In this document: positions 23,124 through 61,856 of the stretch, piece after piece
How positions within the stretch are numbered: the stretch's first letter is position 1
How the letters are laid out: the number at the start of each line of letters is the position of its first letter
Source of the DNA: Spiribacter halobius
Lineage (GTDB): Bacteria > Pseudomonadota > Gammaproteobacteria > Nitrococcales > Nitrococcaceae
NCBI RefSeq assembly: GCF_020883455.1
Contig: NZ_CP086615.1
Span: 2,356,001 to 2,420,000, forward strand
Length of the DNA stretch: 64,000 nucleotides
Direction: 5' to 3'
Program-made: the position numbers and the translations under genes
The notes under the pieces: generated by a model
Databases searched by the model: none
What the model was told of the DNA's origin: nothing
Seen by the model: the letters and a program-made list of their open reading frames with translations, nothing else

Positions 23124-23580
23124 GACCCGCGCCGGCCGGGACTGGCACGGCATGGCCTATGCCGTCGCGTTCGTGGGCGTGGGCGTGATCGCCCTCGCCA
23201 GCTCGGGGGATTTCTCGCCTCTGGGCGCGGTGTTTCCGCGCACCATCGCCACGGCGCTGATCGTCTTCTCGCTTGGCTATATCGCCCAGAACCTGTTCCG
23301 CCCGCCCGGCAAGCTGCCGCGGGGCGACGAGGGGTCCTGGGCCCGACGGGCGCTGCTGGTGGCCGTCATGCTGGGCTGGATCGCGGCACTGCCCTGGCTG
23401 GGGTTCCTGGTGGCCGGCGGGCTGGGCTTCTTCGGCATGATCCTCGTCGGCAACTACGACGCCTGGAGCCCCCGCCGGGTGGTCATCTACGCGATCACGT
23501 CCATCGCCATCATCGGCGGCTTCTATGGACTGTTCGCCGTGGCCCTGAACGTGCCGCTGCCGGAGGCCTCGCTGTTCTAG
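23113..23580 (+). CDS. slcF: TTT transporter small membrane subunit, probable sulfolactate
   Basis: This 155-residue protein has four predicted membrane helices, as in TctB. It overlaps the TctA gene by 11 bases, implying coupled translation, and ends at a palindrome that starts inside its TAG stop codon. Sequence conservation in TctB is low, so identity rests on context and topology. Confidence 0.83.
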   Translation: MTTETRAGRDWHGMAYAVAFVGVGVIALASSGDFSPLGAVFPRTIATALIVFSLGYIAQNLFRPPGKLPRGDEGSWARRALLVAVMLGWIAALPWLGFLVAGGLGFFGMILVGNYDAWSPRRVVIYAITSIAIIGGFYGLFAVALNVPLPEASLF

Positions 23581-23626
23581 CCCGCATGTCTCACCGATTC
23601 ACGGCAATCGGTGAGACATGCGGGCT
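23579..23626. repeat. Palindrome copy A, likely bidirectional terminator
   Basis: The arms AGCCCGCATGTCTCACCGAT(T) and their exact complement form a perfect 21-base stem with a 6-base loop, the strongest hairpin I see in the window. It starts in the slcF stop codon and ends 5 bases before the suyR stop on the other strand, so it separates two convergent transcripts. Confidence 0.85.
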
Positions 23627-26487: not shown

Positions 26488-27234
26488 ATGACCGCTAAGG
26501 TTGCACTCATCACCGGCGCCGGCACCGGCCTCGGCCGCGCGGTAACCCGGGCACTGCTGGCCGACGGTTACGCGACGGTGCTCGCGGGCCGGCGGCGGGC
26601 GCCGCTGGAAGAGACTGCGCGCGGGGTGGAGGCGGAGCGGGTGCTGGTGGCACCCACCGACGTCTCGGACCCTGACGCGGTGGACGCGCTGTTCGAGCAG
26701 ATTCGCGCCCGCTTCGGACGGCTGGATGTCCTGTTCAACAACGCCGGGGCCATGGCACCGGGCTGCACGGTGGACGAGCTCGACTGGGCGCAATGGAAGA
26801 CGGTGGTGGACGTCAACCTCAACGGCGCCTTCCTCTGCGCCCGTGGCGCCTTCGGTCTGATGCGCCGGCAGTCGCCCCAGGGCGGGCGCATCATCAACAA
26901 CGGCTCCATCTCCGCCCACGCGCCGCGCCCGGGCTCGGCGGCCTATACCGCGACCAAGCACGCCATCACGGGGCTGACGCGCACGCTTTCCCTGGATGGG
27001 CGGCCGTTCGACATTGCCTGCGGGCAGATCGACATCGGCAACGCCGCCACCGAGATGACCGCGCGCATGCCGGAGGGCGTGCCGCAGGCGGACGGCAGCG
27101 TGCGCGCCGAGCCGGTAATGGATGTCGCGCACGTGGCCGAGGCGGTCCGCTACATGGCGGGGCTGCCGCTGGAGGCCAACGTCCAGTTCATGACCGTCAT
27201 GGCCACCAAGATGCCCTTCATCGGCCGCGGCTAG
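26488..27234 (+). CDS. SDR-family oxidoreductase at the end of the sulfolactate operon
   Basis: This 248-residue classical short-chain dehydrogenase has TGAGTGLGR near residue 9, NNAG near 83, a catalytic Ser in [10 protein letters not shown] near 136 and YTATK near 149-153. The ATG at 26488 follows ATGGAGGC; the ATG at 26473 lacks a site. It lies 21 bases after comC and is probably co-transcribed. No SDR is part of the core sulfolactate scheme I know, so it may feed the pathway, for example by oxidising dihydroxypropanesulfonate or sulfolactaldehyde, or have an unrelated job. This is inference. Confidence 0.85.
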
Positions 27235-27905
27235 CCCGCATATCTCACCGGTCCGCGCCCGCAGCCGCGAACCGGTGAGATATGCGAGCCAGGGGCGCTC
27301 AGAGGAACGGCGGCGACAGCAGCTCGGCGAGGAAGCGGGGCAGCAGCCGCGGCTCCAGCAGCAGCATTGAAGGCCACGCCCCAGGCACCGCCCCAGAGGT
27401 GGGCGCTGTGGTTGATGGCGTCCTGCCCCTGACGCTCGGCGTACACCGAGTAGGCGACATAGGCGGCAGCGAAGATGATCGCCGGCACCGGCACCACGAA
27501 CACCAGCAGCGTGCTCCAGGGCGCCAGCAGGATGTAGGCAAAGAGCATCGCAGAGACTGCCCCGGAGGCGCCGAGGCTGCGGTAGCCCGGGTCGCGCCGG
27601 TGGCGGAAGTGGCTGGGCAGCATCGCGACCACGATGCCGGCGGCGTAGAAGAGCACGAACCCCTCGATGCCGATGCGCGGCGCCAGCACCCGCTCCATGG
27701 TGCTGCCAAAGAAGTACAGCGTCACCATGTTGAACACGAGGTGGGCGCCGTCGGCGTGCACCAGGCCGTGGGTCAGCAGCCGCCACCACTCGCCCCGGGC
27801 GACCGCAGGCGGCCAGTAGATCAGCCGATCGAGCCAGTCCGGCCGCTGCCAGGCATACCAGGACACGGCGGCGGTGACGGCGATCAGGAACAGAGTGGCG
27901 TTCAT
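27231..27905 (-). CDS. Rhomboid-family intramembrane serine protease, 3' end probably frameshifted
   Basis: The frame encodes 224 residues with about five to six membrane helices. Catalytic Ser115 lies in LGASGAVSA and His169 in [24 protein letters not shown] (near 46-60) is the conserved helix-2 motif. After residue 180 the frame becomes Ala-rich and runs through a palindrome to a late stop. The -1/+1 alternative frame from about 27365 reads [15 protein letters not shown] and stops at 27299, which looks like a true rhomboid tail. A one-base slip in the GCTGCTGCT tract near 27355-27370 is the simplest explanation. The catalytic core is unaffected. Confidence 0.82.
27233..27290. repeat. Palindrome copy B between convergent genes
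   Basis: AGCCCGCATATCTCACCGGT (27233-27252) pairs with ACCGGTGAGATATGCGAGCC (27271-27290), with mismatches only near the outer end, around an 18-base GC loop. It begins in the SDR's TAG stop codon and lies before the proposed true rhomboid stop at 27299. Confidence 0.8.
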
Positions 27906-39617: not shown

Positions 39618-40865
39618 ATGCAGCAGGATTTTCTCCAGCTCGGTGTCGCCCTCGTGATCGGCCTGCTGGTGGGGCTCGAACGTGGCTGGCGGTTGCGCGA
39701 CGCCGACGAGGGCGCGCGTGTTGCGGGCATCCGCACCTTCGCCCTGGTCGGACTCGCGGGCGGGCTGGCCGGTGTGGTTTCCGACGGTCTCGGTGACTGG
39801 CTCGTGGTAGCCGCCTTGCTTGCGCTGGTGGCGCTGCTCTGGCGCGGATTCCAGCAGGAGGCCGAGCGCAGCGGCGATGTCGGCGTCACCACCGAGGTGG
39901 CCGTGGTGGTCACCTACCTGCTCGGCGTCATCGCCGTGCGGGGTGAGCCCGCCGTGGCCGCCGCCGGAGCGGTGGTGACGGCCGGCCTGCTCGGCAGCAA
40001 GGACGTCCTGCACGGCGCACTGCGGCGGCTGGACGAGCTCGAGCTGCGCGCGGTCCTGCAGCTTGCGCTGATCAGTATCGTGGTGCTGCCGGTGCTGCCC
40101 GACCGCGGTTACGGCCCGTGGGCTGCGCTGAATCCCCGCGAGATGTGGCTGATGGTCGTGCTGATCAGCGGCATCGGTTTCTTCAGCCACTTCGCGGTGC
40201 GAATCGCCGGGCCACGGCGCGGGCTGCTCGCCACGGGGCTGTTTGCGGGCCTCGCGTCTTCCACCGCCCTGACCCTGGCGCTCGCACGTGCGGCCCGGCA
40301 GACGCCCGAGCGGCAGCGGCTTCTGGCCGCCGCGGTGGTCATCGCGAGCACGATGATGTTTCCGCGCGTGCTGCTGGAGGTGGCGGCGGTGAACCGCGCC
40401 CTGGTGCCCTCCCTGCTCGCGCCGCTGCTGACCCTCACCGCAGTCGGCACGGCGGCGGCGGTCTGGCTAGCTATGCGCGCACGTGCCGTACCCGATCGTG
40501 GCGGTGGCGGGCCGGCACGGCCCTTCGAGCTCACGACGGCCCTGCAGTTCGCGGCCCTGCTGGCGGTGGTAATGCTTGCCGCCGAGGCGGCCCGGCGCTA
40601 CTTCGGGGAGTCCGGCATCTATACCCTCGCGCTGCTCTCGGGGTTGACCGACGTGGATGCCATTACCCTCTCGCTGGGGCGCCTGGCGCGGGACGAGCTG
40701 GCGGCGCCGGTGGCTGTCCGGGGTATCGTCATCGCGGCGCTGGCGAATACCGCGGTGAAGGGCGGGCTGGTGCTGGCCCTCGCTGGCGGGCTCATGGGGC
40801 TCGCCGTCGCCGCCGCCCTGGGCGCGGTGCTGATCGCCGGCCTGCTGTGGCTACCGTTCCTCTAG
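39618..40865 (+). CDS. MgtC/SapB and DUF4010 membrane protein
   Basis: This 415-residue protein has an N-terminal MgtC-like part (QLGVALVIGLLVGLERGWR, then VAGIRTFALVGLAGGL, about 1-140) and a C-terminal DUF4010 part (to 415), with about ten to twelve helices. GLTDVDAITLSLGRLA near the end is the typical DUF4010 block. The family is linked to magnesium or other ion homeostasis, without a firm mechanism. The ATG at 39618 follows GGCGGAGTC. It ends in palindrome copy C. Confidence 0.82.
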   Translation: MQQDFLQLGVALVIGLLVGLERGWRLRDADEGARVAGIRTFALVGLAGGLAGVVSDGLGDWLVVAALLALVALLWRGFQQEAERSGDVGVTTEVAVVVTYLLGVIAVRGEPAVAAAGAVVTAGLLGSKDVLHGALRRLDELELRAVLQLALISIVVLPVLPDRGYGPWAALNPREMWLMVVLISGIGFFSHFAVRIAGPRRGLLATGLFAGLASSTALTLALARAARQTPERQRLLAAAVVIASTMMFPRVLLEVAAVNRALVPSLLAPLLTLTAVGTAAAVWLAMRARAVPDRGGGGPARPFELTTALQFAALLAVVMLAAEAARRYFGESGIYTLALLSGLTDVDAITLSLGRLARDELAAPVAVRGIVIAALANTAVKGGLVLALAGGLMGLAVAAALGAVLIAGLLWLPFL

Positions 40866-40921
40866 CCCGCCTATCTCACCGATTCGCGGCTGCGGGCGTG
40901 GATCGGTGAGATAGGCGGGCT
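40864..40921. repeat. Palindrome copy C between convergent genes
   Basis: AGCCCGCCTATCTCACCGAT (40864-40883) and its exact complement (40902-40921) make a 20-base stem around an 18-base GC-rich loop. It begins in the TAG stop of the MgtC-like gene and ends 6 bases before the ABC ATPase stop. Confidence 0.85.
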
Positions 40922-51683: not shown

Positions 51684-52055
51684 GTGAAACCCGGTCGCAC
51701 CGGCCTTGATCGCATCGTCCACGCCGCCGGCTATTCGCTGCGCGGGTTACGTCTGGCCTGGCGGGGCGAATCCGCCTTCCGCCAGGAGGTGGCGCTGGCG
51801 CTGCTGCTGCTGCCGGCGGCCTTCTGGCTGGGGCGCGATCCCGTCGAGGTCAGCCTGCTGGTGGTGGTGGTGATGGTGGTGCTGATCACCGAGCTTCTGA
51901 ACACGGGGGTAGAGGCCGTGGTGGACCGGGTTGGTCACGAGCACCATGAGCTTGCAGGCATGGCCAAGGATGTCGGCTCGGCGGCGGTGATGCTCAGCCT
52001 GTTGCTGACCGGCTTCGTCTGGGGCGCGATCCTCTGGGGCCGCTTCGTCGGCTAG
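51684..52055 (+). CDS. dgkA: Diacylglycerol kinase
   Basis: This 123-residue integral membrane enzyme has three helices and the prokaryotic DAGK signature ELLNTGVEAVVDRVG with the catalytic Glu, plus ESAFRQEVAL and KDVGSAAVML. It phosphorylates diacylglycerol to phosphatidic acid in the inner membrane. The start is GTG at 51684 behind AAGGAG. Its TAG stop begins palindrome copy D. Confidence 0.94.
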   Translation: MKPGRTGLDRIVHAAGYSLRGLRLAWRGESAFRQEVALALLLLPAAFWLGRDPVEVSLLVVVVMVVLITELLNTGVEAVVDRVGHEHHELAGMAKDVGSAAVMLSLLLTGFVWGAILWGRFVG

Positions 52056-52233
52056 CCCGCCTATCTCACCGATCTGCGCAGCGAGGGCGTGGAGATGGCG
52101 GGCAGGACAAGGCGCGGGAGAGTTCGGGCGCGCAGGCGTACTCGACAGTACGTCGAGCACCCGGACCGAGCGCAACGCCGGCCTGCCCGCCAGATCCGCG
52201 CCCGCAGCCGCAAATCGGTGAGATAGGCGGGCT
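52054..52233. repeat. Palindrome copy D, 180 bases, with a nested element
   Basis: The outer arms AGCCCGCCTATCTCACCGAT (52054-52073) and exact complement (52214-52233) equal those of copy C, but the loop is 140 bases rather than 18. The extra DNA is a second palindromic element at 52097-52191. The flanking loop halves (GAGGGCGTGG and ATCCGCGCCCGCAGCCGCAA) correspond to the loop of copies B and C. It lies between dgkA and fxsA, which run in the same direction. Confidence 0.85.
52097..52191. mobile_element. Nested 95-base MITE/REPIN-like element
   Basis: The element is bounded by GGCGGGCAGG and CCTGCCCGCC and has the central dyad GTACT-CGAC-AGTAC (52138-52151). It codes for nothing. It sits in the loop of palindrome copy D, as an insertion would. 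Its mobility is inferred from structure only. Confidence 0.55.
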
Positions 52234-52316
52234 AGGCTTGCCCGCACCCGGCCGGGGGCGGACACTGCGCGCCGGAGTCCATGGCGGCCGAGCCGCCGAG
52301 CCTGCAGGAGGTGTGC

Positions 52317-52772
52317 GTGCCGGTATTCCTGGTGCTGTTCCTGGTCGTGCCCCTGGTGGAGATCTATCTCCTGATCGAGGTGGGGCAGATCATCGGGGCC
52401 CTGCCCACAATCGGTCTCTGCGTGCTGACGGCGGCCGTCGGCGGCGCGCTGTTGCGCCAGCAGGGCCTGGATACTCTGGCCCGCGCGCGCCGCAACCTGG
52501 ACGAGGGCCATGTTCCGGCGCTGGAGCTGTTCGAGGCCGTCGCCCTGGCGGTGGGCGGGGCACTGCTGCTGACGCCGGGCTTCGCGACGGACGTGATCGG
52601 CTTCGCCTGTCTGCTGCCGCCGACCCGCCGCCTGCTGGTGCAGTTCGCCCTGCGCCGGGTCAACGTGGTCTACGGGCCCGCCGGGCGTCCGGGCGGGGGG
52701 CAGGGCGATCGGGGCCGTCGTGACCCCCGTACCATAGAGGGCGAGTACCGACGCCGCGACAGCGACCGCTAG
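52317..52772 (+). CDS. fxsA: FxsA-family membrane protein
   Basis: This 151-residue protein reads FLVVPLVEIYLLIEVGQIIG, then GGALLRQQGLDTLARAR and GGALLLTPGFATDVIG, all typical of FxsA, with three membrane helices and a basic cytoplasmic tail. Overproduced FxsA relieves F-plasmid exclusion of phage T7 in E. coli; its normal role is unknown. I chose the GTG at 52317 behind GCAGGAGG. Confidence 0.88.
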   Translation: MPVFLVLFLVVPLVEIYLLIEVGQIIGALPTIGLCVLTAAVGGALLRQQGLDTLARARRNLDEGHVPALELFEAVALAVGGALLLTPGFATDVIGFACLLPPTRRLLVQFALRRVNVVYGPAGRPGGGQGDRGRRDPRTIEGEYRRRDSDR

Positions 52773-61283: not shown

Positions 61284-61856
61284 ATGCAGGAGCAAAGGTC
61301 AGCCGATGACACGAGCGTGGCGGTCAGTGCGCCGCCGCCCGGTCCGCGGCGCCGGCTGGCGGACGCTGCGGCAGTGTCCGAGCTCGTGCGGGCATTCTAC
61401 GCGCGTCTGCTGGACGATCCGCTGATGGCGCCGGTGTTCGTGGATGTGGCCGGGGTCGACCTCAGCCACCATCTGCCACGGATCGAGGCGTTCTGGCGCC
61501 GGATGCTGTTCCGGGAGCCCGGCTATCGCCGTCACATGATTGCGCACCACGAGCGGGTGCAGGACCTGCAGCCGCTGACCAGGGCGCATTTCCAGCGCTG
61601 GCAGGCGCACTTCCTGTTCACCCTCGACGAGCGCTTCCACGGGCCCGAGGCGGAACGGGCCGCGCGCCTCGCCCGGCGGATCGCCGCGCACATGGCCCAC
61701 TGGCTGCTGGAGGAGCGCCCGCGGCGTCTCGCCGCCGCGGGCGCAGAGGCCGTGGGGCCTAGCCTGGACGCCGCACCTGGCCCGGACAGCTCAAGGATCC
61801 GCGCCCGCAGCCGCGAATCGGTGAGCTATCCGGGCTGGCCGGTGAGGTCCCGGTAG
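61284..61856 (+). CDS. Truncated hemoglobin (group III-like) with repeat-derived tail
   Basis: The core (about residues 22-150) reads LVRAFYARLLDDPLMAPVF, HLPRIEAFWRRMLF and HERVQDLQPLTRAHFQRW, matching the 2/2 truncated hemoglobins of group III, with the proximal His in MIAHHERV. Such proteins bind oxygen or nitric oxide. The last 20 or so residues (SRIRARSRESVSYPGW...) are encoded by palindrome copy E, so the tail is an accident of the repeat. The start is uncertain; GTG at 61317 is an alternative to ATG at 61284. It overlaps the convergent DUF2189 gene by 31 bases. Confidence 0.82.
   Translation: MQEQRSADDTSVAVSAPPPGPRRRLADAAAVSELVRAFYARLLDDPLMAPVFVDVAGVDLSHHLPRIEAFWRRMLFREPGYRRHMIAHHERVQDLQPLTRAHFQRWQAHFLFTLDERFHGPEAERAARLARRIAAHMAHWLLEERPRRLAAAGAEAVGPSLDAAPGPDSSRIRARSRESVSYPGWPVRSR
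61780..61835. repeat. Palindrome copy E overlapping two convergent gene ends
   Basis: GCCCGGACAGCTCA (61780-61793) pairs with TGAGCTATCCGGGC (61822-61835) at 13 of 14 positions. The loop GGATCCGCGCCCGCAGCCGCG matches the loop of copies B and D in more than 15 bases. It lies inside the 3' end of the hemoglobin gene and covers the DUF2189 stop codon. Confidence 0.75.

Follow-up and report, generated by a model that had tools for sequence, protein, structure and literature searches.

In the Spiribacter halobius genome, the gap between dgkA and fxsA holds a palindrome whose loop contains a second palindromic element, which raises the question of how the two came to lie one inside the other. An earlier note, made from the letters of the window (the whole 64,000-nucleotide stretch analysed, in which the coordinates of this locus are given), proposed either that one small non-coding mobile element had inserted into another or that this copy is the long parent form of a family from which short copies derive. 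The parts that it named, namely the outer arms, the GGCGGGCAGG/CCTGCCCGCC pair and the GTACT-CGAC-AGTAC centre, were all found at 52054–52233. Including the CTAG on both sides, the complete unit spans 52052–52235 (184 nt) and is described on the + strand, which is the better-folding one.

The left CTAG (52052–52055), probably target sequence, contains at 52053–52055 the TAG stop codon of dgkA (51684–52055, + strand; PF01219, 120.8 bits), whose last codon therefore lies inside the end of the element. The left outer arm (52054–52073, + strand) reads AGCCCG-N5-CTCACCGAT and resembles the inverted repeat found in certain insertion sequences (ISs) of the IS1380 family, and the right outer arm (ATCGGTGAGATAGGCGGGCT, 52214–52233, + strand) overlaps the right CTAG (52232–52235), a probable second target copy, with fxsA (52281–52772, + strand; PF04186, 121.2 bits) downstream. 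Between the arms, likewise on the + strand, the inner stem pairs GGCGGGCAGG (52097–52106) with CCTGCCCGCC (52182–52191) and encloses the tip AGGCGTACTCGACAGTACGTCGAG (52134–52157), whose hairpin GTACT-CGAC-AGTAC occupies 52138–52151; the right loop half (52194–52215) is retained by most short derivatives. The predicted RNA fold of the 184-nt unit has an energy of −135.7 kcal/mol, compared with −79.8 ± 4.5 for 200 shuffles (z −12.3). Elsewhere in the window lie short derivatives with approximate ends: A, with a truncated loop (23579–23626), B (27233–27290), C (40864–40921) and the diverged E (61780–61836).

Full-length copies, short derivatives and nested variants

Searched as the single 4,172,350-bp contig that contains the window, the genome holds 312 matches to the arm pattern (at most one mismatch), against 10 for a reversed control, and 54 matches to the 28-nt inner core (at most three mismatches; 41 perfect; 29 forward and 25 reverse), against 0 for the reversed control. 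Counts so far above the controls indicate that the palindrome is not a product of chance. A 211-base query around the feature recovered, among the best 40 of 264 candidates, near-whole elements in the same orientation at 87–100% identity, and the inner 97 nt alone, among the best 40 of 133 candidates, gave 92–100% identity. Both arms lie within ~15 nt of the standard spacing around 44 of the 54 cores; nine further cores also sit between arms, eight in longer variants and one in a variant with a shortened interior, and core 3804937, which is degenerate, is the sole armless case. With its small size, predicted lack of coding content and many dispersed copies (184 nt; 54 cores), the unit has the general character of a MITE.

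Because 54 full copies require 108 arm matches, the 312 observed imply that short forms are numerous. The inner sequence is neither unique in the genome nor carried by every family member, as short palindromes without the core exist, and neither count speaks against the earlier claim. Among 18 strict short palindromes classified by eye, the right loop half survives in 15 and neither half in two, and one (2289987) has a left-type half, a pattern that supports the suggestion of a long parent form giving rise to short copies. A regular expression applied to 8.8% of the genome, which misses palindrome 2289987 owing to a changed base in its right arm, found 15 arm pairs that lack the core; 13 of them retain the right half, none the left and two neither, one of these last measuring 220–239 nt and hence not being short. 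The short palindromes look like deletion derivatives of the 184-bp form, and the short form most plausibly arose by internal deletion and later spread independently, since the long form is the one common to several phyla.

The other suggestion, in which an inner mobile element of 95 nt entered an older short palindrome, would agree with the near-invariance of the inner part and the variability of the arms within this genome, and with the extra nested hairpin modules that some copies hold at a CAAGG loop; it is set against the finding that 53 of the 54 cores lie between the same arms, so that the inner part was met without arms once, as a wreck, and was not found alone, as well as against the recurrence of the 184-nt layout across phyla and the retention of the right loop half alone in most short forms. 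We therefore regard insertion as a very improbable origin of the copy at 52052–52235. Real nesting does occur in the eight longer copies (cores 524130, 851084, 970943, 1043874, 2797938, 2808969, 3511410 and 3888958; loci L136, L138–L140, L144, L146, L148 and L153), where inspection by eye placed the extra hairpins at the CAAGG internal loop. The extra sequence of core 3511410 is one stem, and the seven others carry one or two further core-like hairpins of the form CAAGGCG...CAACGCC, inverted in some copies (by eye).

Host range and strand-specific fold

Element matches (E ≤ 0.001) were obtained in nine of the 95 genomes searched, S. halobius included, with clear copies at 66–89% in G004, G047 and G062 and, in the other five, short matches resembling chance or a lone arm. 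When the named genome collection was scanned for the tip pattern, at least 120 stretches were returned, 80 of them titled, from Ectothiorhodospiraceae, Sedimenticola, Chromatiaceae, Methylocaldum, Lysobacterales, Thauera and Pseudothauera and from Acidobacteria (Bryobacterales, Holophagae), Thermoanaerobaculales, "Deltaproteobacteria", Eisenbacteria and Aminicenantes; most titled matches are metagenome bins and may individually be misassigned, whereas Pseudothauera lacus and Methylocaldum sp. 14B are among those not so labelled. The same layout appears in Gamma- and Betaproteobacteria, Acidobacteria and "Deltaproteobacteria", and the geometry is near-constant across hosts, with an arm ~80 nt before the core and a unit of ~184 nt. 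The distribution is nevertheless patchy: among 398 genomes drawn from the phylum, the exact tip pattern occurs in one, that of S. halobius itself. The exact core pattern was absent from the viral contigs scanned, and blastn of two element queries against plasmids and of one against phages gave zero matches. Many contigs of an Ectothiorhodospiraceae bin (SLSJ contigs, L155–L274) begin or end in or near an element copy; the element therefore probably breaks assemblies in that bin.

Arm complementarity reached at least 14 of 19 positions in 77 of 97 extracted copies and fell below that in 20. For structural analysis, 53 of the 97 were picked for diversity, each with 13 or more complementary positions among the 19 of the arm. 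RNAalifold, run on these rows, yielded 54 pairs, 43 of them with compensatory changes; the arm criterion biases the result towards the outer helix, the search pattern predetermines the tip, and the structure was predicted from the alignment on which it was scored. Paired cells amounted to 93.9%, compared with 72.5% in shuffled and at most 43.1% in slid alignments, and the covariation score was 0.592, compared with 0.196 ± 0.007 and at most 0.113, respectively. Compensatory change is also extensive in the unselected inner helices, affecting 8 of 8 pairs in helix 3, 8 of 9 in helix 4 and 4 of 5 in helix 6, and the C-G pair that tops the tip hairpin is G-C in 25 of the 53 rows and U-A in one (other hosts).

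The two strands differ consistently. The consensus fold energy is −75.9 kcal/mol for the top strand and −42.4 for the bottom strand (−160.1 and −144.1 with RIBOSUM scoring), and the top strand folds better in all 53 single sequences. The top-strand structure contains 302 G-U cells, 63 of which belong to the pattern-fixed tip helix, against 26 A-C cells, and within the inner helices the ratio is 198 to 14; in the bottom strand's own best fold, the corresponding numbers are 91 and 88, or 142 and 220 with RIBOSUM. Template-switch repair maintains quasi-palindromes and might keep the arms complementary with no selection on a fold, a reading favoured by the N5 of the arm: although it varies among copies, its left and right versions are identical in 35 of the 44, where shuffling gives a mean of 9.2 and a maximum of 19. 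This match counts for the mobile-element reading as well. Such repair leaves unexplained, however, both the inner-helix asymmetry between G-U and A-C and the internal loops conserved across phyla, and it is an unlikely account of the arms' complementarity.

The interior is predicted to fold as a rod with conserved internal loops and a conserved tip, much better on one strand than on the other. As fold and covariation depend on the strand, the element would work as a single strand. We infer both which molecule folds and what the fold is for, RNA being the simplest reading and single-stranded DNA the alternative. Rfam gave 0 matches at gathering score for the window and ten related loci, with two permissive matches far below the cut-offs.

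Stop codons, target sites and IS1380-type ends

Many copies are flanked by CTAG on both sides. In 43 copies the ends are clear: TA stands on either side in 28 of them, and a preceding C with a following G in 30. The dinucleotides that flank the element left and right are the same in 28 copies, against 28.6 after shuffling, so that variants on the two sides are independent, and none of the 43 shows a direct repeat of 3 bp or more. The IS1380-family target direct repeat is listed as 4 or 5 bp in the accessible parts of two sources (PMC4133298, PMC3281130). Of the 88 element ends in 44 copies, 22 (in 19 copies) have a terminal TAG that serves as the stop codon of a coding frame. In the stretches of the genome analysed, the same holds for 306 of 9165 stop trinucleotides elsewhere (3.3%) and for 18 of 258 CTAG sites elsewhere (7.0%); coding frames were called with a home-made codon score that may err in single cases. 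In three copies a frame is closed at both ends, and a gene caller confirms converging genes for cores 1702620 and 2702459 but not for 2690722. At the first two, an insertion into a CTAG common to two overlapping convergent genes would give this arrangement.

Exact placement at many stop codons, together with the strand-specific fold, could also be produced by an immobile host RNA element, such as a 3′ UTR stabiliser or terminator, spread by selection. Orientation at the stop codons is unbiased, though: the gene is continued by the folding strand in 11 cases and by the opposite strand in 11 (11 left ends, 11 right ends), an even split that argues against a function in the mRNA of the upstream gene. 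All gene contexts occur among the 54 cores (<< 17, >< 12, >> 10, <> 9, inside a called gene 6), the host range is patchy and the ends are transposon-like, and a host RNA element is accordingly among the least probable readings; a 3′-end role at stop codons was dropped on the same evidence of orientation.

Orthologous sites also bear on mobility. Two dgkA orthologues, in G004 (59% identical) and G006, end in GGCTAG and carry no element, and two others end differently (GTCTAAC in L292, TGGTAGC in L293); CTAG was thus already present at the dgkA end in two of four orthologues. Among six dgkA loci compared, fxsA lies near dgkA only in S. halobius. At a second locus (L164), aligned at gene level only, the flanking genes are 65–171 nt apart in 8 of 19 relatives, against ~310 nt with the element, and in the other 11 the flanks are separated by 330–658 nt or the left one aligns poorly. 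Here CTGA and TAAA, not CTAG, lie outside the element ends, and the preceding gene ends two codons past an LLEL motif, like that of the element-free L312 and L321 (by eye). Among relatives, G602 has copies at other loci, with 91–95% identity. Judged from these alignments, the proteins appear not to be shortened in either case (dgkA, L164), and the presence/absence differences among relatives are those expected of a mobile element.

The ends themselves point to a particular family. An arm scan of viral contigs yielded six stretches. In one of them (L327), the arm CTAGCCCGGATTTCTCACC lies, as one end, upstream of a 453-aa ORF that matches NF033539 (NCBIfam IS1380; 413.9 bits, cut-off 180) and PF13701 (516.4 bits); in another (L330), the residues encoded after the arm begin as those of the L327 ORF do (by eye). 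Two plasmids, from Pseudomonas putida and Stutzerimonas, carry annotated IS1380 elements that encode an identical transposase protein and occupy unrelated sites; in both, CTAGCCCGCATTTCTCACA stands at either end, matched at 16 of 16 positions. A Rhizobium plasmid IS1380 element has a 13/16 version of the ends with TTAG on both sides. Such terminal repeats were thus found in three of four plasmid IS1380 elements (two at 16/16, one at 13/16) and in L327; IS1380A of Acetobacter, of the same family, is without these ends. Because annotated IS1380 elements carry such ends, the arms may be assigned to an IS1380 subgroup as its terminal repeats. No IS1380 transposase was found in at least 366,888 bases (8.8%) of the S. 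halobius genome or in 20 stretches around arms. IS1380-family-like ends and orthologous sites without the element together bear out the view of a small non-coding mobile element.

Other viral contigs from the scan show related arrangements. L331 (4768 bases) and L328, both phage-like, have a CTAGCCCGCATTTCTCACC arm near the contig end (both ends in L331), followed by sequence that is alike in the two and differs from the element; these are possibly a different element with the same ends. In L332, arms of the ATTATTCATGAA type enclose a long palindrome unlike that of the element; the whole, at 802–1043, measures ~240 nt.

A competing reading takes the strand asymmetry as recognition of single-stranded DNA and the feature as a REP/BIME-type palindrome moved by a tyrosine transposase (RAYT or IS200/IS605). 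Beyond the strand-specific fold and covariation, it can draw on CGTC-like and GTAG motifs that many alignment rows show immediately interior to the outer stem (by eye), these being tags of the two REP superfamilies in the part of PMC3733652 available, and on Y1 transposases in seven of eight genomes tested. Yet scanning 20 of the 22 Y1 loci in those eight genomes revealed neither a core nor an exact arm, the nearest being arm-like matches with one or two mismatches, and the RAYT of S. halobius (L119) adjoins a different inverted repeat, AGGGGTCAAGTCTTGAC; moreover, GCAGTAG reads GCAGCCG in the S. halobius copies, and the element ends match IS1380 instead. With these points weighed, tyrosine-transposase mobilisation seems improbable.

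At G000:C1:445187–446140 (L119, L124), two adjacent RAYT-like Y1 transposase matches were observed. The long inverted repeat beside L119 is unrelated to the element and recalls the TIR-flanked RAYTs described in the portion of PMC3733652 available.

Several candidate partners were set aside. A RAYT was rejected on the 20 Y1 loci, with other inverted repeats beside some of them; an IS630/Tc1-type MITE (TA target) was rejected with 0 PF13358 matches in the S. halobius genome and matches in 4 of 11 host genomes; and blastp among 3085 ORFs near copies gave clusters whose listed examples partly overlap the elements, with no common neighbour enzyme recognised among them. Beside lone arms in L226 and G067, no transposase was seen by eye or pattern, nor by tblastn in L226.

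Interpretation and closest known systems

Alongside the observed copy number, shared ends, strand-specific covariation, stop-codon position and element-free orthologous sites, we consider it likely that the feature is a full-length, non-autonomous MITE-like element, mobile, with IS1380-type ends and moved in trans. An IS1380-type DDE transposase, provided in trans, would recognise the element ends; insertion would take place at CTAG-like sites, often a gene's stop codon, and would leave CTAG on both sides, so that gene length would be unchanged. Both the mobilisation by IS1380 and the target duplication are inferred steps of this model. The fold would serve the element itself, as a transcript or in single-stranded form, more than the host gene, because stop-codon copies face either way equally often.

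More tentatively, the element may persist as a structured single strand, most likely RNA, with one 184-nt fold that shows compensatory change over several phyla and is required for its spread or survival, and that sheds its interior or gains hairpin modules in an internal loop; this is a possibility that we entertain rather than favour. Bacterial MITEs are usually viewed as transposon remnants with a passive hairpin. A non-coding interior whose strand-specific fold is preserved from phylum to phylum through compensatory changes implies that something selects for the fold. It makes three ideas testable, namely that the core of a MITE is a working RNA or single-stranded DNA, that there is a route to distant phyla and that landing on stop codons is a form of harmlessness, and the transposon-like ends indicate which enzyme to test. 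As far as the literature on IS1380 and MITEs was accessible, it contains no IS1380-derived MITE, and IS1380 is not mentioned in the available part of a MITE review (PMC10969869).

Among known systems, the IS1380-family ISs of the CTAGCCCGCATTTCTCAC-end subgroup (e.g. on P. putida pKF715A) share with the element the same terminal inverted repeats and the CTAG at both ends; unlike the element, they carry a transposase gene, and no 184-nt core was seen beside their ends (by eye only). GTAG/CGTC REPs, BIMEs and RAYTs resemble it as dispersed palindromes, often near gene 3′ ends, and CGTC-like and GTAG motifs occur in many element copies too; REPs, however, are units of 20–40 bp, the GTAG ones tied to tyrosine transposases (PMC3733652, in the part available), whereas the element has 184 nt, IS1380-type ends and no RAYT link among the 20 Y1 loci scanned. 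As far as the accessible parts of two sources describe them (PMC10969869, PMC4133298), ERIC, NEMIS/Correia, Nezha, TIME and QMITE are, like the element, small and non-coding, with IS- or transposon-like inverted-repeat ends and a stable predicted RNA fold. Compared with those descriptions, the element is set apart by its 184-nt layout with compensatory change over several phyla, its strand preference and its placement at stop codons.
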